A stretch of DNA of 64,000 nt from Agarophyton chilense (lineage: Eukaryota > Rhodophyta > Florideophyceae > Gracilariales > Gracilariaceae): contig JARGXX010000068.1 in the NCBI GenBank assembly GCA_030374765.1, positions 1,364,001-1,428,000 of the forward strand. The letters run 5' to 3'. Shown piece after piece: positions 6,857-64,000 of the stretch. Positions within the stretch are counted from its first letter, which is position 1. Each line of letters starts with the position of its first letter. The translations under genes and the position numbers were made by a program. A model generated the notes under the pieces. That model saw only the letters and a program-made list of their open reading frames with translations, did no database searches and had not been told where the DNA came from.

Positions 6857-6872
6857 GTTATGGGCCCAGCGC
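6857..6872 (+). promoter_or_regulatory. Primer-binding site matching initiator tRNA-Met anticodon arm
   Basis: Directly after the 5' LTR comes GTTATGGGCCCAG, which is complementary to CTGGGCCCATAAC. That is the conserved anticodon arm of eukaryotic initiator tRNA-Met. Copia of Drosophila and yeast Ty5 are known to prime from an internal (half) iMet tRNA in this way. The first ATG of the gag-pol ORF (6,860) lies inside this site. Confidence 0.8.
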
Positions 6873-9800
6873 TACAGTCCAATCTGCCGTCCCGGCCCAA
6901 GTTCTCCTGGGATGCCAAGTCTCCTCCATGGACTGATGGCAAAGGTGACCAGGAAGAATACCGTGATGCTGTGAAGCTCTGGCAAACGTTTCATAACGCA
7001 CTACCAGCTTCGAACAGCAACAAGATTCCAATTGCACTTCAGGCTATATGTCTTAAGTCGCAACTTTATGGCCGTGCAAAGGACCTTTGCTCCGGAATTG
7101 CTGATGGCCAGTTGACGGAAGATGGCGCTGTGGATCATCTGGTAGGAAAAATCTACCAGAAGGACGCTCTCTCTGTAGTCAGTGAGGCCTATCGCGATTT
7201 CAACCAACTCTGGAATACTCGTAGAGGCAACACAGAGACTATGAAGAACTTCGAATCCCGTTTCTCCGCGCAAGTTGCAAAGTTCAACTTCATCTCTGCA
7301 ATGACTAAGCTTCCAGAGTGTATTACGGCGCTAATGCTGCTATCCAACTATGCAATTGACGACTCTCAGCGGGTCTCTGTCATGGCAGCAGCTGCACCTT
7401 CCGATGAGAACCTGAATTCTCAATCGTCGAATGATGAGTTTCTGAGCTCTATCACGTATCAGTCAGTGGCCTCGGTAATAAATCAGTGCCACAAGACTTC
7501 GCATGCCCTGAGTGGTACTGTACCGCTTACTGCTAGTTCTGCTGGCACCACGCAACACCGCCAACAACATCGCTATAGCAAGAACAGTTCTGGTTACCGT
7601 TACAAAGGACAGTCTCCTTCAATGAAATATCCTTGTGACATATGCGGCAAATACGTTCATTGGAAACGTAACCATAACCCTGACGGCTCACTACCTCATC
7701 ATGTCAAGTCGTTCGATGCACCAGCTACATCATCTGCTTCGCGAGCTCCTGGATCGCGCCCTGACCATGATCAAGAAAGGAGAGACAAGTCGCAAAGGAA
7801 GACAGTGTCGTTTAATATGGCAACTCTGACTAGTTCATCAGCTAGTACCGGCAAGTCACCTGTCGAAGTTGGACCTCTACTTGACGACGGAGCACCGTAC
7901 TCTGCAATTGGCCTTATCGAACTGAATCTACTTGCTGACCATATAGGGATATCGCCCAATCCCAAGCTCGATGCTATTCCCAAAGCACTCGATGGACATA
8001 CACATTGGCAGTATGGAGTCGGTGAACACTCCAGTCCGGCACGCTGCATCCTAGGATCTATTGTCATCACTGCGACGTCTGACCAAGGTAGACCAGTCCG
8101 TATCACCCACCTTGTCCTGGATGGATCTTCTCAGTGGGTCATAGGAAGAAATGTAACTCGCAAGGCCAACATCGAGCATATTGGAAGAAATGCACTGGTC
8201 TTCCTGGCTGATGGTCATAGAGACCATATATCTATAATCAATGAAAGTTTCTTAAGCTACATAGCTCTAGATCGGTTTACCTCTCATTGTAACAATGGTT
8301 CTACATTGTCATGCCTCTCAGCAGTCACTCTCGATAATGCACCATGGCTTGAGGTCAAGAAGATTATAGAAAAAGTCCACAAGCACGTTTGTGGTCATAC
8401 AAGCTATACAGACTACAAGCTCCTCCTCGAGAGAAACGGATTTTGGAATGAAACCATAGCTTCCTACCTCACGGACATGTTCAATCGCTGCACGGCTTGT
8501 CGAAGCACATCGGTCCCGCAGCCCAGTCGTAAGGTTTCAATCAGTTCTCTGTCAAAGAAATTCAACGAGGTTCTCTGTGTTGATCATCTCTATCTGGATG
8601 AAATACTACTAATTCATCTGATGGATCTCATCACACGATATTCGAGCGTCTATGCAGTTACCTCGACAAATCTCTCAGAAGCTGTTGTTGGCTTTGAAGC
8701 TTCATGGGTATCACAATTCTGGTACCCTGACTCTATTCGTGCAGACAAGGAATTCCAAATAGGTGCATTCAAGAATTACACCAAGAAGCTTGGAATCCCA
8801 ATTCACCCAGTGCCTCCTGGTAGGCACTCCAAGAATGCAATAGAGTCTAAACACAGCATCATCCGTAGCGTCTTTATTCGTCTAAAAGAAGCTGCTGGCG
8901 CGGACTTCGATCCAAAGCTCGCAGCATACAAGGCTGTGTCAATCTCAAATGACCTCTATGGCAACGACACTATGTCTGCATTCGAACTAGCCAAAGGCTT
9001 TTCTAGCCCTATCGTGGCAAAGCCTATCGAAACTGTAATCCCGGATGATGTGCTCAACGCTCGTGACCAGCTTAAAGCTCGTCGCAAACTGGCGCTTTTT
9101 TTGCGCTCGAAGGCAGTGACCGAAGTGCCAATTGCAGCTGGTGATCTGATAGAAGTATACCAAAAGAAAGAATTTGAGAAGAGAGGAAAATGGTCCGATC
9201 CCAAACCGGTCCTCTCTATCAACCAGCATGCACGTTCAGTGACTGTACCAGGACGCAAAAATCGAGAAATCACTGTTGCATTTGAAGATACTCGCCCAGC
9301 GCTGCCTCAAGAAAGCTTCGCCCAACTAGTACAAGATGGTATTGACTCGATATCCGAGATTTCAAGTGACCATTGTACTGCTTTAAAGGCACAGGCTGAA
9401 TTGAACACAGATGTCAACTTTGAATGCTCCGTACCAAGTGACACTGCTGTTGACTTATCTCAAGGTTTGTCTGATATCAGCACACCTGTTGATGCAACTG
9501 TTGATGATGACTTCTCTACTGAATCCTCAAACGTTGAACCCTGTGTAGGAGACAATATCTCTGTCCTCTGGCCCCTTGAAGAACAATTCTTCCCTGGCAC
9601 TGTCCACTCGGCAACAGAAGATGGTCGTCTAAACATACACTATGATGATGGGGATGTAGAACAACTTGAAATGGAGAAGGAGGTATGGAAGTTTACTGAA
9701 ACACTCCCAGCCAGTTCTGGTACAGTGGTACAACTGGAAGTCACAAGCACTGAGAACTCAGTCCTAGAATCGATTCTTGACCATTTTGGGAACAAACCAT

Positions 9801-11389
9801 TTCTAAGGCACCACGCACAAGGGTTTGACCAATACCCTTTAGTCAACGACTACAATGCAGAGGAAGATACATTTCTCAAAACTCTTCGCCTGGTCACACA
9901 TGAAGAAGTTCCTCCGAACTCCAATGTTATCAGCAGTCACACCTTATACAAAGTGAAGACTAATGATGACGGGTCTCTCAAGCTTAAAGCACGTATTGCA
10001 CCACATGGGAACGAGGAAGATTTGAAGAACGTCTTGAGCAAAGACTGTACCACATGCCCACCCACAGGACTTCGGATCCTCGAATCAATTGCATCTCTAT
10101 TCGGCTGGATAATCCACAGGGCTGATGTGAAGGCTGCGTTTCTGCAGACAGGGGAGGCTCAAAGAAACGTCTATGTCCGCCCACCCAAAGAAAGCCAAAT
10201 GAAATCGACTCATCTTTGGCTACTTCTGACAGCTGCCTACGGCCTTGTCAATGCAAATGCCAAGTGGCAGAACCAGTCCGATAATGTTATGTTTGACATT
10301 GGACTCAAGCAGTCGACCCATGTTCCTCAGCTTTTCTTCCAGAAAGAAAACGGAAGGCTGGTATTAATTGTTGCTAAAATAGTTGACGCCCTGAAAGCTG
10401 CAGGCGATGGCGACCGTGTGAAACGCTTTGTGGAGGAGTTTGACAGACGATTCAAGTTTGGCGATGTGATGCAAGGGCCAGGCAAACTCCGATTCTTTGG
10501 CATCAACACTGTTCAAAATGGCGACTTTACCATTGAGACAGATGCGGACGATAAGATGAACTCTGTATCTGAGTATCCGTTTTTTAGGCAACGCCGCAAG
10601 AATTTTGATGAGCCACTCAATCAGCTTGAAAAGTCTGTGTTTGCCTCCACAAATAGTTCACTTGGATGGATCGGAACTGCGGCTTCACCATTTTGCTCAT
10701 TCTATGCCAGCTAACTGCAGCAAAAAGCCCCTGATCTAAAAGTGTGTCACCTTGTTGAACAAGTGAATATAGTTCGCAAGCTGAAGAAGCTCGGAACAAC
10801 TATTGCTTACCCTAGACCAACAGACAAAAATCAGTATGAACTCAGCGTTCTAGTGTTTTCAGATGCGTCACGGACAGATGAATGTGGCCAACTTGGAGTT
10901 CTAACTGGGTCGCTTATCGGTGAGATGAAGAACAACTCGATTTATCATGCCATATCGTGGTTGTCTCACAAGTCAAAGCGCCCGGTCAAAAGCATACCTG
11001 CTGCAGAGATTTTTGCTGCCTCGGAAGGGATTGACGAAGGAAAGACAATCTCTAAGGCATACTCGGAGCTTCTTGGCATGGAAATCAAGTTGAGACTTGC
11101 TGTGGACTCTAAGGACTTGTTTACTTCACTATCGACACAGAAGAATTCTATCGATAAATCGATTCGTGGTGATGTTAGCTGCGTCCGTTTTGAATTTCAG
11201 ACTGGTGCTGTTCATAAGATATAGTGGGTTACAGGTCATTCCAACCTGGCAGATCGGCTTACCAAGAAAGACAGCTCTCTGACAGATGCTCTTCAACTGA
11301 TTCTGTTCACTGGCAGACTTTGCTTCGATTTCCAGGACATTGCTGAGACGAAGCATTTCGAAGAAAAACTTTGGCTGAAAGGGGAGGAA
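6860..11389 (+). pseudogene. Gag-Pol polyprotein of copia element C (two in-frame stops, RT active site VDA)
   Basis: A single-frame polyprotein starting at ATG 6,860, uninterrupted to a TAA at 10,712-10,714. The same frame continues to a TAG at 11,222-11,224 and on to the LTR. Domains by residue: Gag (1-250); a CCHH knuckle CX2CX4HX4H (about 259-272); a protease-like LLDDGAPYSAIG (about 340-352); the integrase HHCC finger (about 507-545); and the catalytic core with VDHLYLD (about 573), ADKEF (about 627) and AIESKH (about 660). A Tudor-like module follows (about 897-946), then RT with ADVKAAFL (about 1,087) and KIVDALKAAG (about 1,172-1,181), and RNase H in the continued frame (SDASR, IPAAEIFAA, LADRLTKK). 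The RT catalytic pair is D-A instead of D-D. Integrase before RT makes it Ty1/copia. Confidence 0.9.
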
Positions 11390-18951: not shown

Positions 18952-19163
18952 TGTAAGAGTGGGAACACAATCAATGCTTTTGTTTTCGTTTACGTTCGTG
19001 TTGCCGTGACGCTGTCCTTCTTCGGTTACGCTAACTCTATCGTAGCTTATATAACAAGGTTTGTTACCTCCATGTTTGAATGGTTTCGAATTCAAACATA
19101 TGCATTTGTAACAACGGGTGCTATGAATCAAGGCGAGCGGGTGCCACGTAATACTATATTACA
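18952..19163 (-). repeat. 3' LTR of element E copy A
   Basis: A 212-bp repeat, TGTAAGAGTGGG...TATATTACA, identical to 23,697-23,908 except A/G at the AACAAGG/AACGAGG site. It begins TG and ends CA, and lies next to the purine tract. Confidence 0.95.
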
Positions 19164-21430
19164 TTCACCCCCTTTTTAGAATCAAGCGTCCTCGTTGATT
19201 CTTCATACTCCCGAATACTGTCCTTGCAGTTCCGTAACTCGCTTTTCGGCATCCAAATTGCGTCTTGTGGCGTATCGTTCTCAAATTGGACCAGGTAGTA
19301 AACCTTGCGTCTTGATTTCTTCTTTCCAAGAATCTTCTTCACTTTCTGTTCTACATTACCTTGAGCGTCAATCACTACAGAGAGTGTGGCTTTGTCGTTT
19401 CCTGGCCTGAAATACTTTTTCAACTTGGAAACATGGAAAACGTTATGAGCACGCTTCATTGTTGGGGGGAGTTCAACTTCGTAGGTAACTGGTCCCATAA
19501 TTTGTTTGACTGATAGGGGACCGACGAACTTCGGTCTCCACTTCTTGGGAAGATCCGTCCTAGATGATAGTCCGGTGCCTTCGAGATTTAACATAACGAG
19601 GTCTCCGACTTCAAAAGTTTCGTGTCTTCTCTTCTGATTAGCATAGAATACTTGCTGTGCTTGTGCAATGGCGAGATTGTCTCGTGCCATTAGCCTAAAA
19701 ATTTCCCTAGACTGTAAAGTTTCCACTGCTGCTTGACATTTTGAAGACGAAGAAATTTGTCGTTCCAATTGCGAAAATGGAACGTATCCCAAATCGATTT
19801 CAAACGGAGCCAGTTTTGTGCTCATGTGTTTGGTTGAATTGTGTTCAAACTCGAGTTCGCTGATAAATAAATCCCAATCTTCAGGCTTTCTCTGAATGAT
19901 GTTTCGAAGCATCTGGCTAAGCGTTCGTATAGTTTTTTCGCTTTGTCCGTCGGTCTGGGGGTGTCCTTTTGTTGCCATGTTCTTTTTGATATTAAGCGTT
20001 TGGGTAATACCTTCAAAATACTTTGAAGTGAACAACGGGTCTCTATCCAGTATGATAGGTTCTAGAATTCCGTGTTTTGAGAAGACATGATCAAACAGTA
20101 ACTGCACAACATCACTGGCTGTAATTGGTTTGTTCGTGGGGATGAACAGGGCGCGTTTCGATAATTTCTCAACAATGACAAACACTGAGTCATTTCCGTT
20201 ATTTGTCGTCGGAAATTCTGTAAAAAAATCCATTGTTAAAACCTCCCAGCAATTCATTGGAATGCTGTGCGGCTGCAGCAGGCCCTTGTTGTTCTTTCGT
20301 TCCTCCTTGTTTTGTTGGCAGTTAAGGCATGATGCTACATATTTGGTAACATCGTTGTACATTCCTTTCCAATAGAATGACTTGGCACACTGATAAAAAG
20401 TTTTCTCCACCCCAAAGTGGGAGCTATCGTGAACTTCCGTGAGAACATCGTTTCTTAGATCCTGTACTCGTGGAACGTAAAGCCTTTTTGTTCCGGTTCC
20501 CGTCCAATAAAGATTCTTGTTCTCGATTTCGTAGTTACTTGAATACATACGAACCTTTTTTGAATGATCACCGTTCTTGTTTGCGAACCATGCGAATAGG
20601 TCTCTTGACCATTGTTCCTTAGCGTAGGCTTCTTGGATTCTATGCAGAAGAGTGTGGTTCTTCAGCCGTAATGAGTTGAGAATTATTGAGTGACTGATGT
20701 TCCTACTTAAAGCATCTGCGGCGCCGTTCTGCGTGCCCGGTAGATGTTCCACGGTAAAACTATAGCTTTGCAGCTCGTCTAACCATCGCATCTGCCTTCC
20801 GCTTAGCTTCGTCTTTGACTGCAGATATCTGATTGGTTCGTGGTCTGTTCTCAGAATGAACGGTCTGTCACGTAGATATACAGCCCATGTCCTCAATGCA
20901 ATCATCACCGCCAGCAGTTCTTGGTCCCCCGTATCCCATCTCGTTTCCACCTCGGTCAGTCGGTGAGATAGGTAAGCGACTGGGTGCCCGTTCTGTTCAA
21001 GCGTTGCTCCTACGGCAAACTTTGACGCGTCTGTCGTTAGGATGAAGGCTTCTGCCGAAGAAGGGTGTTTTAGAAGCGGTGCATTCGTAAGCTTCTGTTT
21101 CACTTCGTCGAACGCATCTTCTTCTCTTTCAGTCCACGTGAACACTTTCTTTCGAACTATGTCAGTAAGTGGCGATACAACTCTTGCATAGTTCTTCATA
21201 AAGCGTCGGTAGAAGTTGGCAAGTCCTAAGAATCTTTGCACTTCCTTAACGTTCTGAGGTGTAGGCCAATCCTCGACTGCCTTCACCAATCGTTTCTGTG
21301 TTCGGATTCCTTTCCAGTTGACTTTGTAACCTAAGTAGTCCACTTCTTCAAGTCCAAACGTGCACTTGCTGGGTCGTAGATACAACTTGTGCTTTCGCAA
21401 TATACTGAACACTTGTAGCAGATGCTGTTA
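19154..21430 (-). pseudogene. Element E Pol, distal part: RT end, RNase H, integrase, chromodomain (copy A)
   Basis: This is the same frame as the RT ORF at 21,967, interrupted only by a TAA at 21,428-21,430. It continues for 757 codons to a stop at 19,154 that overlaps the LTR edge. Blocks: RT thumb (LRPSKCTFGLEEVDYLGY), RNase H (LTTDASKFAVGATL; DQELLAV; RTDHEPI), the integrase zinc finger (HDSSHFG then CLNCQQNK), the catalytic core (LTMDFFTEFP, ILDRDPLFTS, HPQTDGQSEKT) and a GPY-like tail (FVGPLSVKQIMGPVTYEVELP). The C-terminus (VKKILGKKK then YYLVQFENDTPQDAIWMPKSEL) has the shape of a chromodomain with one aromatic-cage residue as Phe. Confidence 0.92.
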
Positions 21431-44558: not shown

Positions 44559-44770
44559 TGTAAGAGTGGGAACACAATCAATGCTTTTGTTTTCGTTTAC
44601 GTTCGTGTTGCCGTGACGCTGTCCTTCTTCGGTTACGCTAACTCTATCGTAGCTTATATAACAAGGTTTGTTACCTCCATGTTTGAATGGTTTCGAATTC
44701 AAACATATGCATTTGTAACAACGGGTGCTATGAATCAAGGCGAGCGGGTGCCACGTAATACTATATTACA
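44559..44770 (-). repeat. 3' LTR of element E copy B
   Basis: 212 bp, same as 18,952-19,163. Confidence 0.95.
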
Positions 44771-47037
44771 TTCACCCCCTTTTTAGAATCAAGCGTCCTC
44801 GTTGATTCTTCATACTCCCGAATACTGTCCTTGCAGTTCCGTAACTCGCTTTTCGGCATCCAAATTGCGTCTTGTGGCGTATCGTTCTCAAATTGGACCA
44901 GGTAGTAAACCTTGCGTCTTGATTTCTTCTTTCCAAGAATCTTCTTCACTTTCTGTTCTACATTACCTTGAGCGTCAATCACTACAGAGAGTGTGGCTTT
45001 GTCGTTTCCTGGCCTGAAATACTTTTTCAACTTGGAAACATGGAAAACGTTATGAGCACGCTTCATTGTTGGGGGGAGTTCAACTTCGTAGGTAACTGGT
45101 CCCATAATTTGTTTGACTGATAGGGGACCGACGAACTTCGGTCTCCACTTCTTGGGAAGATCCGTCCTAGATGATAGTCCGGTGCCTTCGAGATTTAACA
45201 TAAAGAGGTCTCCGACTTCAAAAGTTTCGTGTCTTCTCTTCTGATTAGCATAGAATACTTGCTGTGCTTGTGCAATGGCGAGATTGTCTCGTGCCATTAG
45301 CCTAAAAATTTCCCTAGACTGTAAAGTTTCCACTGCTGCTTGACATTTTGAAGACGAAGAAATTTGTCGTTCCAATTGCGAAAATGGAACGTATCCCAAA
45401 TCGATTTCAAACGGAGCCAGTTTTGTGCTCATGTGTTTGGTTGAATTGTGTTCAAACTCGAGTTCGCTGATAAATAAATCCCAATCTTCAGGCTTTCTCT
45501 GAATGATGTTTCGAAGCATCTGGCTAAGCGTTCGTATAGTTTTTTCGCTTTGTCCGTCGGTCTGGGGGTGTCCTTTTGTTGCCATGTTCTTTTTGATATT
45601 AAGCGTTTGGGTAATACCTTCAAAATACTTTGAAGTGAACAACGGGTCTCTATCCAGTATGATAGGTTCTAGAATTCCGTGTTTTGAGAAGACATGATCA
45701 AACAGTAACTGCACAACATCACTGGCTGTAATTGGTTTGTTCGTGGGGATGAACAGGGCGCGTTTCGATAATTTCTCAACAATGACAAACACTGAGTCAT
45801 TTCCGTTATTTGTCGTCGGAAATTCTGTAAAAAAATCCATTGTTAAAACCTCCCAGCAATTCATTGGAATGCTGTGCGGCTGCAGCAGGCCCTTGTTGTT
45901 CTTTCGTTCCTCCTTGTTTTGTTGGCAGTTAAGGCATGATGCTACATATTTGGTAACATCGTTGTACATTCCTTTCCAATAGAATGACTTGGCACACTGA
46001 TAAAAAGTTTTCTCCACCCCAAAGTGGGAGCTATCGTGAACTTCCGTGAGAACATCGTTTCTTAGATCCTGTACTCGTGGAACGTAAAGCCTTTTTGTTC
46101 CGGTTCCCGTCCAATAAAGATTCTTGTTCTCGATTTCGTAGTTACTTGAATACATACGAACCTTTTTTGAATGATCACCGTTCTTGTTTGCGAACCATGC
46201 GAATAGGTCTCTTGACCATTGTTCCTTAGCGTAGGCTTCTTGGATTCTATGCAGAAGAGTGTGGTTCTTCAGCCGTAATGAGTTGAGAATTATTGAGTGA
46301 CTGATGTTCCTACTTAAAGCATCTGCGGCGCCGTTCTGCGTGCCCGGTAGATGTTCCACGGTAAAACTATAGCTTTGCAGCTCGTCTAACCATCGCATCT
46401 GCCTTCCGCTTAGCTTCGTCTTTGACTGCAGATATCTGATTGGTTCGTGGTCTGTTCTCAGAATGAACGGTCTGTCACGTAGATATACAGCCCATGTCCT
46501 CAATGCAATCATCACCGCCAGCAGTTCTTGGTCCCCCGTATCCCATCTCGTTTCCACCTCGGTCAGTCGGTGAGATAGGTAAGCGACTGGGTGCCCGTTC
46601 TGTTCAAGCGTTGCTCCTACGGCAAACTTTGACGCGTCTGTCGTTAGGATGAAGGCTTCTGCCGAAGAAGGGTGTTTTAGAAGCGGTGCATTCGTAAGCT
46701 TCTGTTTCACTTCGTCGAACGCATCTTCTTCTCTTTCAGTCCACGTGAACACTTTCTTTCGAACTATGTCAGTAAGTGGCGATACAACTCTTGCATAGTT
46801 CTTCATAAAGCGTCGGTAGAAGTTGGCAAGTCCTAAGAATCTTTGCACTTCCTTAACGTTCTGAGGTGTAGGCCAATCCTCGACTGCCTTCACCAATCGT
46901 TTCTGTGTTCGGATTCCTTTCCAGTTGACTTTGTAACCTAAGTAGTCCACTTCTTCAAGTCCAAACGTGCACTTGCTGGGTCGTAGATACAACTTGTGCT
47001 TTCGCAATATACTGAACACTTGTAGCAGATGCTGTTA
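44761..47037 (-). pseudogene. Element E Pol, distal part (copy B)
   Basis: Same RT thumb, RNase H, integrase and chromodomain as copy A, with the same TAA at its upstream end (47,035-47,037). The one protein difference I noticed is GDLFMLNLEG in place of GDLVMLNLEG. The shared stops show they predate the duplication. Confidence 0.92.
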
Positions 47038-57392: not shown

Positions 57393-58439
57393 ATGCTCAT
57401 TTATGTTTGCGGTCCGCTTCGTGCTGGCAAGAAAACTCTCGCTCGTTACCTCACTCAAACGCTCGGCTTTCTCGAGGTTGAAAACTCAGAAATCAATCAG
57501 CTGCAGCAATCGCGTGCGTCCACAAACCTTGTCTCCTCTTGCTGGCGAGAGCATATCGTCGCCGTCATCGTTTCAGAGCCATACCAAAACAAAGCTCTCG
57601 CGCATCTCCTCAGCCGCCCCTGGGTTCTAATTGTTTACGTCGATGGTCCTCTTCTGGCACGCTTTTATAGATTCCACCAGACTGCATCCGACTATCAAGA
57701 ACAGTGGCCTTCGTTCCGTGCTTTTCTTCAACAACAACATTGCCGCTCCAATATTCGTTATGATTCACACTACCTTCTATCCGCTCACAAAGCTCACAAT
57801 TCGCATGCGCAACAACTTCATCCCGAAGCTCCAAAGGGCATTGACATGGAACAACTCGAAAAGCTTGCACATATTCGAATTTTTAATGACTTTGAGTCTA
57901 TTCAGCAATTTCATCAAGCTCTATCCGAAATCGATTTCACAGACATGCGGCGATTGAGGCCCACTTGGGACACTTACTTTATGTCACTCGCCCGACTAAC
58001 AGCTCAAAGAACAAATTGTATGAAGAGGGGCGTAGGTTGTGTAATAGCCCGAGATCGAAGGGTGGTATCTACTGGATACAACGGCACTCCAGCTGGCGTA
58101 ACTAACTGTTTTCAGGGCGGATGTCCTCGTTGCAATCAGCAAAACGTGCGAGGAGTAGGCTTGGACCTTTGTTTATGTCTTCATGCTGAAGAAAATGCTA
58201 TAATTGAAGCTGGTCGTGAACGTTGTCAACGCAGTACTCTTTACACAAGTGTATTTCCATGCATTTTGTGCTCTAAAAAGATAGTTCAAGCAGGCGTTTC
58301 AAGAGTTGTTTTTGACACCGACTACGGAGCTGATGATGCTTCCGAAAAACTACTAAAGGCAGGAGGAGTCGTTATCGACAAGATCGTCGCAGATGAAGTG
58401 TGTGTTCGCGTTACGAGCCTGGCAAAAGTGGGTGCATAG
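57393..58439 (+). CDS. DCD1: Deoxycytidylate (dCMP) deaminase with N-terminal P-loop-like domain
   Basis: 348 residues. The enzyme converts dCMP to dUMP, feeding thymidylate synthase, in cytosol or nucleus. The C-terminal half is the zinc deaminase: RPTWDTYFMSLARLTAQR, then NCMKRGVGCVI, TGYNGTP, the zinc ligand and proton shuttle H264-A-E266 in CLHAEENAI, and P289-C290-x2-C293 (PCILC). The N-terminus carries a Walker A-like G7-x4-G12-K13-K-T and an NMP-kinase-like stretch. The yeast Dcd1 enzyme has a similar N-terminal extension before its deaminase domain, unlike the short animal enzymes. The ATG at 57,393 opens directly into the P-loop. The gene is convergent with Yippee, 100 bp between stops. 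I see no frameshift or intron. Confidence 0.93.
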   Translation: MLIYVCGPLRAGKKTLARYLTQTLGFLEVENSEINQLQQSRASTNLVSSCWREHIVAVIVSEPYQNKALAHLLSRPWVLIVYVDGPLLARFYRFHQTASDYQEQWPSFRAFLQQQHCRSNIRYDSHYLLSAHKAHNSHAQQLHPEAPKGIDMEQLEKLAHIRIFNDFESIQQFHQALSEIDFTDMRRLRPTWDTYFMSLARLTAQRTNCMKRGVGCVIARDRRVVSTGYNGTPAGVTNCFQGGCPRCNQQNVRGVGLDLCLCLHAEENAIIEAGRERCQRSTLYTSVFPCILCSKKIVQAGVSRVVFDTDYGADDASEKLLKAGGVVIDKIVADEVCVRVTSLAKVGA

Positions 58440-61983: not shown

Positions 61984-63129
61984 TTACGAGCCCAAGGCGC
62001 GATCCAAATCCAGCTTGGTCACCTTCTTTGTTTGAGCCTTGAGAATGGCCACCTTACGATCTTGATGAACACCCAGTGCTGGGCCATTTCGATTCTGTCT
62101 CTGTACATCCGGCGCATCTACATCCTTTCGTCGCTGTCGGCGACTGTGCTTGGCGTCATTTCCGCGTCGATTGGAAGTGAGTCGCCTTTTGTAGTGGATG
62201 TTACGGCTCCATTTGCTCTTCGGGTTTGGTAATTCTGGCCTCTTGTCCTTCTCTGTAGCCTGTCGAATCCAGATGGGAATAAGCTTATCACCCTGTTCGA
62301 AAGGTTTCCCACCACGCCATGTAAGTTCTTCGGTAAGGGTACCCTCCCCGGCAACTGCTAAGCTCATACCCGCACCCTCGCCATCATCCATTTTATCTTC
62401 CGGGGCATTTTCAACAATTTGATCCATAACCAACTGTTTACCATGCTCGGTGAGACCGCGTAAAGCCCTTCGCATCGTATGTTCGTCCTCGAAAGCAATG
62501 TTACAACTAGAGTCATTAAGCCACTCACACCATGACGGGCCATATTCTTTAAAGTGTCGAAGGATTTCACCAGTGCTGAGCAAGTCAACGCCAAAAACAT
62601 GAAGCACTTCCGGACGAGCAACTTCACCGACGGCAACATCGCGACGACGCTCGAGTGCATCATTACAAACATGAGCCGCTCCGACGAGCTCATGCGCCTT
62701 ACCGCCGAATCGATGGGTGCGTGCATCACGTGCGGCCTGTTCAGCATCGAAGGAAATCTGTTCCCCAAAGCGTTTCGCTCGCATCTCTCGTCTGCTTTTC
62801 TGATCGGGCGCTTGCGGATCAAAGCCAGAGGCGAACCCTTGACGTGAGTGCGCGCGACGTGCCCCTAGTACGTCAAGTTCTGTTGCGCGGGTCTTGAGGT
62901 CTGCGGCGCCGAAACGCGCGGCTCGGGCTGCGAACTTCTCCGAGGTTTGGTTCATTTGGCTTTGTAGACGGGACAGAGCCGTTGGAGTCGGCGCTAGGTC
63001 GAAGGTGATGGGGTTGATGGTGGTGGAGGCCTCGGGTTTCGAGTCGCCCATGAGTGGGACTTCCGTGCTTACTTGAGGCTCAAGTTTTGGTGGGTTTGAG
63101 GCTTGAACGGGAGAAGACGTCTGGGCCAT
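61984..63129 (-). CDS. Tho1/MOS11-like and NCBP3-like RNA export protein
   Basis: 381 residues from ATG 63,129 (the longer frame starts at GTG). Residues 65-145 hold three R-F-G motifs: AARAARFG (about 67-74), REMRAKRFGE (about 114-123) and DARTHRFGG (about 135-143). These are the A-x-R-x-x-R-F-G repeats of Tho1/SARNP/MOS11, which bind the helicase UAP56/Sub2. Residues 173-225 (PEVLHVFGVDLLSTGEIL, then EYGPSWCEWLNDSSCNIAFED) are the NCBP3-type RRM, whose W-L-N/D-D-S-S-C-N block is diagnostic. Residues 271-300 (WRGGKPFEQG...IRQATEKDKR) match the second NCBP3 block. The C-terminus is basic. Likely a nuclear mRNA packaging and export factor linking the cap-binding complex and TREX. The pairing of both modules in one chain is unusual. 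Confidence 0.78.
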   Translation of the reverse strand: MAQTSSPVQASNPPKLEPQVSTEVPLMGDSKPEASTTINPITFDLAPTPTALSRLQSQMNQTSEKFAARAARFGAADLKTRATELDVLGARRAHSRQGFASGFDPQAPDQKSRREMRAKRFGEQISFDAEQAARDARTHRFGGKAHELVGAAHVCNDALERRRDVAVGEVARPEVLHVFGVDLLSTGEILRHFKEYGPSWCEWLNDSSCNIAFEDEHTMRRALRGLTEHGKQLVMDQIVENAPEDKMDDGEGAGMSLAVAGEGTLTEELTWRGGKPFEQGDKLIPIWIRQATEKDKRPELPNPKSKWSRNIHYKRRLTSNRRGNDAKHSRRQRRKDVDAPDVQRQNRNGPALGVHQDRKVAILKAQTKKVTKLDLDRALGS

Positions 63130-63487
63130 GTTAAGGAGAGTGACTTCGAGAAACACTCAAGTTCCAGGATGGAAGTGAGGACAAGAGATGGAGATAAGAA
63201 GTGCTAGGCGACCTACGTCGACGTCGATCCGCGCGGACGGTTGGTCTCAACTAGGCGCTAGGCTGCGTCACCGTGACACCCCCTAACCGGCGTCTTATAG
63301 ACACGTGTGTACCCACGCGGCCGAAATACTGTAGACAGCCACCTTGGACCCGCAAAACGTAGCAGTGCGCCCTTGTTTGGGCTTCCACTGCCCCATCCCC
63401 GGCCCACCCCCACATGCTTCGGCTTCTCGTGTTTGCCAGGAATGCCACGTATTTCGTTATTCAAAGCCCAACTTCTAAAACGTGCTG
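63130..63487. promoter_or_regulatory. Promoter and 5' flank of the Tho1/NCBP3-like gene
   Basis: On the minus strand TATAAG (63,299-63,294) lies about 165 bp before ATG 63,129. The rest is non-coding and separates the gene from the tRNA on the other strand. Confidence 0.45.
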
Positions 63488-63495
63488 TATAAATA
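63488..63495 (+). promoter_or_regulatory. TATA-like element upstream of permuted tRNA-Leu
   Basis: TATAAATA, 42 bp before the end-to-end complementary leader ending at 63,537 and 50 bp before the first mature base at 63,538. Upstream TATA elements are common at red algal and plant tRNA genes. Confidence 0.5.
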
Positions 63496-63537
63496 TTGGA
63501 CAATTTCCTCTGGCATTCATCGGAACACCGCGCGCAA

Positions 63538-63628
63538 CGTTCAGGTCGTAGTATACTTCGTATGCGTGAGTTCGAATCTCACCGCTGTCAAAGGTTAAGG
63601 CAGCGTGGCCGAGTGGTCTAAGGCGCTA
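63538..63628 (+). tRNA. Circularly permuted tRNA-Leu(CAG): 3' half upstream of 5' half
   Basis: The 3' half (63,538-63,590) holds the end of the anticodon stem, the loop TTCAGGT with anticodon CAG at 63,542-63,544, stem CGTAG, a type II variable arm (ATAC-TTC-GTAT), T-stem GTGAG with loop TTCGAAT and CTCAC, acceptor strand CGCTGTC and discriminator A. An 8-nt linker AAGGTTAA follows. Then comes the 5' half (63,599-63,628): acceptor GGCAGCG, TG, D-arm GCC-loop-GGC, G26 and CTA. Joined, the halves give an 83-nt leucine tRNA with all seven acceptor pairs (one G-U) and anticodon stem CTACG/CGTAG perfectly paired. No T-arm follows the 5' half, so the normal order is impossible. Box B lies upstream of box A. 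Maturation should go through a circular intermediate. Confidence 0.92.
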
Positions 63629-63646
63629 AGCGGTTCAATATCCCGA

Positions 63647-63654
63647 TTTTTTTT
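63647..63654 (+). terminator. RNA polymerase III terminator of permuted tRNA-Leu
   Basis: A run of eight T, 18 nt after the end of the 5' half, preceded by the trailer CCGA that can pair with TCGG in the leader (63,520-63,523). Confidence 0.75.
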
Positions 63655-63882: not shown

Positions 63883-63928
63883 CTTGCCCATCTGTCGTTT
63901 CCGTACAGCTCGCAGTACCACATCATCC

Positions 63929-64000
63929 ATGAATGTCGATAACATGGACGCCACAGTAAATACGCCGCCAATAATCGCACAGAGCTGCACCAAAAAGTGC
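63929..64000 (+). CDS. Start of an unidentified protein, cut by the window edge
   Basis: ATG 63,929 opens a frame of 24 codons (MNVDNMDATVNTPPIIAQ...) that reaches the last base of the window without a stop. A TATA box stands just upstream. Too little is present to name it. Confidence 0.45.
   Translation, partial: MNVDNMDATVNTPPIIAQSCTKKC

Follow-up and report, generated by a model that had tools for sequence, protein, structure and literature searches.

We report that a locus in a 64,000-nt stretch of DNA from the red alga Agarophyton chilense (the window, in whose coordinates all positions are given unless stated otherwise) is very probably a circularly permuted and functional gene of the nucleus that encodes cytoplasmic tRNA-Leu(CAG), as judged from its sequence. 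The two halves of the tRNA are swapped on the + strand, with the 3′ half standing upstream of the 5′ half and an 8-nt spacer between them; the initial annotation, which had proposed this arrangement, proved exact to the base. Its reading of a permuted gene draws sequence-level support from (i) the order of the halves on one strand and the short spacer, (ii) the complete cloverleaf of the rejoined tRNA, (iii) a bulge-helix-bulge splice motif at the join, (iv) a probable promoter and terminator outside the halves, (v) the finding of no second Leu(CAG) gene in our searches, and (vi) genes resembling splicing-endonuclease subunits in a genome that carries ectopic insertions in further tRNA genes. 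The splice motif, the position of the junction in the anticodon stem and the multicellular red algal host go beyond that first reading.

Layout of the locus and the rejoined tRNA

The halves and the elements within them are as follows.

63538–63590, + strand: 3′ half of tRNA-Leu(CAG), standard positions 30–73
63542–63544, + strand: anticodon CAG, within the 3′ half
63566–63582, + strand: T-arm, containing the B-box sequence, within the 3′ half
63590, + strand: discriminator A (A73), the end of the 3′ half; CCA is not encoded
63591–63598, + strand: intervening sequence AAGGTTAA, 8 nt, between the halves
63599–63628, + strand: 5′ half of tRNA-Leu(CAG), 30 nt, standard positions 1–29, with the D-arm and the A-box sequence

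The standard tRNA position numbers were assigned manually. Joining 63628 to 63538 creates an 83-nt tRNA, and ARAGORN calls the rejoined letters tRNA-Leu(cag). All 24 of the 24 pairs in the rejoined cloverleaf are standard (acceptor 7, D 3, anticodon 5, variable 4, T 5), and the consensus features T at position 8, G15:C48, G18G19, T33, T54T55C56, A58 and A73 are present together with G37 and a long variable arm. The molecule is thus the type II tRNA that had been described, with T33/CAG/G37, T-arm and A73 in place and with the acceptor stem, D-arm and anticodon arm complete. The junction is located between positions 29 and 30 and falls within the anticodon stem instead of the anticodon loop, where such junctions usually lie. 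As many other trial joins also resulted in tRNA calls of varying sense, ARAGORN alone cannot fix the join; furthermore, the joins 63627/63537 and 63628/63538 yield an identical product because one A is shared.

The claim that the locus has no ordinary tRNA reading was borne out: ARAGORN finds no tRNA in the 64-kb window and none at the locus when introns are allowed, and an Rfam search of the window returned nothing at gathering scores. An ordinary or intron-containing tRNA gene is ruled out by the 5′ half not being upstream of the 3′ half.

Among ordinary genes, two Leu(AAG) genes (L031 and L033) come closest, and the locus shares with them 29 of the 30 letters of its 5′ half and 24 of its last 25. 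The two mismatches are the two sides of the acceptor pair 3:70, which is A-U in Leu(AAG) and C-G here and whose sides sit in different halves of the permuted gene. Pairs 30:40 and 31:39 also differ from Leu(AAG) on both sides, again with the pairing kept. Selection acting on the rejoined molecule would produce such paired changes, although three pairs of a single gene are limited evidence of it.

Splice motif, transcription signals and proposed maturation

The leader, the trailer and the end of the 5′ half carry complementary segments that can form a splice motif around the join, flanked by probable signals for RNA polymerase III (Pol III).

63488–63495, + strand: TATAAATA, probable Pol III promoter element (TATA), 50 nt before the 3′ half, 8/8 match
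63527–63531, + strand: leader strand ACCGC of the outer helix (h′), pairing with 63630–63634
63532–63535, + strand: leader strand GCGC of the central helix (H), pairing with 63623–63626
63536–63538, + strand: 3-nt bulge AAC, inferred cut between 63537 and 63538
63627–63629, + strand: 3-nt bulge UAA, inferred cut between 63628 and 63629
63630–63634, + strand: trailer strand GCGGT of the outer helix, pairing with the leader strand
63647–63654, + strand: T8 run, probable terminator for Pol III, beginning 19 nt downstream of the 5′ half

The unconstrained minimum-energy fold of 63520–63650 contains the ACCGC/GCGGU outer helix, the GCGC/GCGC central helix and the UAA bulge. In the same fold, the bases where the AAC bulge starts are unpaired, and the A and C of this bulge pair in a 3-bp anticodon stem. 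The splicing endonuclease usually cuts a 3-nt bulge behind its second base, and application of this rule to both bulges places the cuts at 63628/63629 and 63537/63538, which is exactly the inferred join. The geometry also separates the two joins that are equivalent in their product: 63628/63538 has H = 4 and h′ = 5, whereas 63627/63537 has H = 3 and h′ = 0. Among 200,000 single-letter shuffles of the leader and trailer, H = 4 occurred in 2248, and H = 4 with h′ of at least 5 in 7. As the exon-side helix is missing (h = 0) and three mature pairs (10:25, 11:24 and 27:43) must open for the central helix to form, the motif is a relaxed form of the bulge-helix-bulge.

Of 5000 70-mers drawn at random from the window, 5 contained a full 8/8 match to the TATA element. 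Upstream matches of at least 6/8 accompany 28 of the 38 ordinary nuclear tRNA genes, compared to 1110 of 5000 random window 70-mers. The element is not a strict rule in this genome, since the two Leu(AAG) genes match it poorly (5/8 and 4/8). A downstream run of at least four Ts within 60 nt was present in all 38 of the 38 ordinary nuclear tRNA genes tested, and 63527–63634 contains no T4 run. The A and B boxes stand in swapped order at the permuted locus; for Cyanidioschyzon merolae, a 2014 review proposes TATA-driven transcription without TFIIIC (PMC3978253).

We propose the following model for the maturation of this tRNA. Pol III would probably start from the upstream TATA and stop at the T8 run, producing a single RNA that runs from the leader through the 3′ half, the 8-nt spacer and the 5′ half to the trailer. 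The leader would pair both with the trailer and with the end of the 5′ half, forming a relaxed bulge-helix-bulge consisting of a 4-bp central helix, a 5-bp outer helix and two 3-nt bulges, with no helix on the exon side. The tRNA-splicing endonuclease would cut both bulges and a ligase would connect 63628 to 63538, resulting in a circular RNA in which the spacer closes the circle in the acceptor-stem loop. RNase P and tRNase Z would then remove the spacer, and CCA would be added. We infer the transcription, cutting, circle formation, end trimming and charging of this RNA from the pathway documented in C. merolae (PMC3978253).

Uniqueness, chance and alternative readings

An ordinary Leu(CAG) gene elsewhere in the genome, which by the initial annotation would refute its reading if it did all the decoding while the permuted locus stayed silent, was sought with sequence patterns. 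Places matching a Leu A-box pattern with up to three mismatches were all examined (13/13), as were 30 of the 60 places matching a Ser A-box pattern, 20 of the remaining 30 of which share a 19-mer of a repeat that held no tRNA where seen. The exact 11-mer TGGCCGAGTGG occurs at 37 places, all accounted for: 10 are already-collected loci, and the 27 others contain one tRNA, Leu(TAA). The leucine genes found comprise one Leu(TAG), two Leu(AAG), two Leu(CAA) with an intron, one Leu(TAA) and one Leu(CAG), the last being the permuted locus; ARAGORN calls the two Leu(CAA) genes Val(CAC), but in our reading they are Leu(CAA) interrupted by an intron at 37/38. No other Leu(CAG) gene emerged among the Leu A-box, Ser A-box (30/60) and TGGCCGAGTGG places, patterns that a copy with an unlike A-box or a break in the D-loop could escape. 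A whole-genome DNA search with the locus produced a single match, the locus itself; as this search also missed the near-identical halves of Leu(AAG), its silence on other copies is weak evidence. Leu(TAG), which is present in the genome, may read CUG by wobble, and the permuted gene thus need not be essential.

The wider tRNA survey included further patterns, of which 30/39, 2/2, 6/46 (none a tRNA by ARAGORN) and 8/14 places were examined; of these last eight, three are already-collected loci and the other five gave no tRNA by ARAGORN. There was no dedicated pattern for Gly, Glu, Asp, His, Pro, Ile or Tyr, and of the 3586 first-look candidates from an Rfam search for tRNAs across the genome, 63 were scored. 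The genome tRNA searches turned up no initiator-Met gene.

To gauge chance resemblance, we used a covariance model (R2) of the permuted core in the order T-arm, acceptor, spacer, acceptor, D-arm, which was trained on 11 ordinary nuclear tRNAs of the same genome after artificial reordering, with the locus left out. R2 scores the locus at 51.9 bits with an E-value of 2.5e-11 in 64 kb (R2 E-values are rough, as the calibration was short), and the next match in the window at 10.3 bits. Over 65 of the 145 collected loci, the strongest competitors were the mitochondrial L008 with 34.8 bits and the nuclear L016 and plastid L034 with 27.0 each. A second model that included the locus in its training (R1) scores it at 61.6 bits. 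As to a second permuted gene, none emerged from this limited survey: R1 found no other locus above 26.9 over 27, 62, 27 and 13 sources, and R2 found no nuclear locus above 27.0 over the 65 of 145 loci; T-loop and D-loop permutations are poorly detectable by either model.

Counting against the permuted-gene reading, the free minimum-energy fold of the rejoined RNA (−29.4 kcal/mol versus −25.6 kcal/mol for the cloverleaf; z −1.77) lacks the D and anticodon stems, but Leu(AAG) and Leu(TAG), two ordinary tRNAs of the genome, behave in the same way when folded freely. Nor does the precursor fold as a whole stand out in stability (z −1.28), with 22 of 200 shuffles equally good.

Among the alternatives, the one that fares best, improbable as it is, regards the locus as the dead by-product of a duplication or rearrangement that left the halves swapped, with expression or processing since lost. 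This would account for the weak matches to possible decayed outer halves at 63231–63260 and 63902–63939, which a duplication would leave, but not for a molecule in which no stem contains a mispair and the changes at 3:70, 30:40 and 31:39 keep their pairing, nor for flanks carrying a splice motif that a dead copy would not keep; moreover, the TATA and the T8 run are in place, and the pattern searches found no other Leu(CAG) gene.

The outer matches also bear on the origin of the gene. The 5′-half-like match (63231–63260) was equalled in 6 of 300 shuffles and in 3 of 310 other windows, and the 3′-half-like match (63902–63939) in 5 of 300 shuffles and in 11 of 315 other windows. They stand in the order that a model of tandem duplication and loss wants. 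The stretches that separate the outer matches from the gene show no likeness (95 of 300 shuffles are as good), and the upstream match extends one letter further in Leu(AAG). We do not claim an origin by tandem duplication and loss, as the intervening DNA is unlike and the outer matches are too weak. In the duplication-and-loss model of the 2014 review, an intron site turns into the junction (PMC3978253).

A split tRNA of the kind known from some archaea, with halves that are transcribed separately and then joined in trans, is very unlikely: the pairing of leader and trailer could also work between two molecules, but the gap of 8 nt offers no room for a second promoter between the halves, and 63527–63634 contains no T-run to end a first transcript. 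Equally remote is an assembly error or a chance resemblance, as the whole-genome DNA search, within its limited sensitivity, found the locus once and no ordinary source copy, the unique flanks bear a fitting splice motif, and chance is excluded by the R2 score of 51.9 bits (E 2.5e-11).

Genomic setting and comparison with known permuted tRNA genes

The window is part of a 5.0-Mb contig (C68) of a 79.8-Mb assembly (G000) that also includes plastid and mitochondrial contigs. A plastid acetylglutamate kinase of the assembly is identical over 285 residues to that of A. chilense, whereas the next species among the best 120 of 8000 matches has 83%; this one plastid protein points to A. chilense or a close relative. 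Agarophyton belongs to the Gracilariales within the Florideophyceae and is a multicellular seaweed. The nearest recognised gene is an open frame (61984–63156, − strand) that has a domain of nuclear cap-binding protein subunit 3 (PF10309) and faces away from the tRNA. An open frame at 57393–58439 (+ strand) has a cytidine/deoxycytidylate deaminase domain (PF00383), and one at 6860–10714 (+ strand) an RVT_2 (copia-type) reverse transcriptase domain. Two near-identical 752-residue frames, 19154–21412 and 44761–47019 (both − strand), lie 25.6 kb apart; the former has retrotransposon RNase H, integrase and chromo domains. On contig C133 (53.3 kb) tRNAs recur at 27,243 bases, so that it resembles two mitochondrial genomes joined head to tail, and contig C132 (26.7 kb) carries the region once more.

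Other tRNA genes of this genome are disrupted as well. Five Ala(AGC) genes (L054, L055, L064, L065 and L066) contain 59/60 T-loop introns of 15 or 24 nt. Two of these genes form a 3-bp central helix and three a 4-bp one, and the exon-side helix is provided by the T-stem; the Ala genes L056, L057, L061 and L063, four in number, are intron-less. The Ala(AGC) intron loci were noted around 1501 on contigs C6 and C135. D-loop insertions, near 20/21, are present in Lys(TTT) (L053, C1:1932226) and in Leu(TAA) (L117, C79:112770). An eMet(CAT) gene (L062, C95:1433339) has two introns, one at 37/38 and one of 19 nt in the T-loop, and its sister L060 the 37/38 intron alone. The identities of Leu(TAA) L117 and of the eMet gene and the Ala genes that have T-loop introns are our reading of the letters.

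The genome has genes resembling four splicing-endonuclease subunits. The catalytic domain PF01974 is found in L028 and L029, which by their motifs appear to be Sen34-like and Sen2-like, respectively; L132 has a Sen54 N-terminal domain and L145 a Sen15 domain. The 2014 review reports no apparent Sen15 in C. merolae (PMC3978253), in contrast to the Sen15-domain gene here. If the seaweed enzyme has all four subunits, its gene content would suggest that the absence of Sen15 is not what permits non-canonical cutting.

It is conceivable, though rather doubtful, that florideophytes keep a C. merolae-like disrupted-tRNA system in which the permuted gene is the sole source of its isoacceptor and a four-subunit endonuclease processes it. 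Were this true, the anticodon-stem junction would show that a complete eukaryotic endonuclease cuts by the bulge-helix-bulge alone, without measuring to 37/38, and introns and permutation junctions would have arisen at the same sites. With ordinary Leu paralogues, ectopic introns beside intron-less sisters and four subunit-like genes, the seaweed could serve as an accessible system for testing the origin of permuted genes and what the eukaryotic splicing enzyme recognises. Standard annotation misses permuted genes, and a genome may therefore appear to lack an isoacceptor that it has.

The table of the 2014 review contains 34 permuted genes with junctions at 15/16, 20/21, 37/38, 50/51 and 59/60 and intervening sequences of 1–74 bp (PMC3978253). 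Later additions are genes of the Amorphochlora nucleomorph (PMC4494063) and of Auxenochlorella (PMC12636532), and introns at unusual sites in the anticodon stem-loop have been reported from nucleomorphs (PMC4090602). Swapped halves, nuclear or nucleomorph, are shared with other photosynthetic eukaryotes, namely Ostreococcus, Micromonas, the nucleomorphs of Bigelowiella and Amorphochlora, and Auxenochlorella (PMC3978253, PMC4494063, PMC12636532), which, unlike Agarophyton, belong to the green lineage; their genes in the table have junctions at 37/38 except for one uncertain O. tauri gene at 15/16 (PMC3978253). The permuted tRNAs of Thermofilum pendens resemble the locus in a junction away from 37/38 but are archaeal, with a junction at 59/60, an encoded CCA and an additional intron (PMC3978253).

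Our literature search, which was weak on subscription papers, returned no permuted tRNA in Gracilaria or florideophytes and no stem junction. As far as this search reaches, the florideophyte host and the 29/30 junction in the anticodon stem are new, whereas the principle was already known.

The closest known system is the permuted tRNA-Leu(CAG) of C. merolae, which is likewise a red algal nuclear gene for the same isoacceptor with swapped halves. The two have in common a spacer of similar length (9 bp in C. merolae, 8 here), an upstream TATA-like element, a downstream T-stretch, a bulge-helix-bulge and the lack of an encoded CCA; they differ in the junction (37/38 in C. merolae, 29/30 here) (PMC3978253). 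The hosts differ too, C. merolae being a unicellular extremophile with a 16.5-Mb genome and A. chilense a multicellular florideophyte with a 79.8-Mb assembly. Other permuted genes of C. merolae have junctions away from 37/38, at 20/21 in Leu(TAA), 50/51 in iMet and 59/60 in Ala, Arg and Lys (PMC3978253); like the locus described here, they need an endonuclease that acts away from the anticodon loop, but among those in the table none has a junction in the anticodon stem. The Leu(TAA) that is permuted at 20/21 in C. merolae has its D-loop insertion near that site in A. chilense, which fits the model of an intron site becoming a junction. Both algae have a permuted Leu(CAG) and a Leu(TAA) that is interrupted in the D-loop; under the rather doubtful scenario of a disrupted-tRNA system kept in florideophytes, the disruption of leucine tRNA genes may therefore date to the red algal ancestor.
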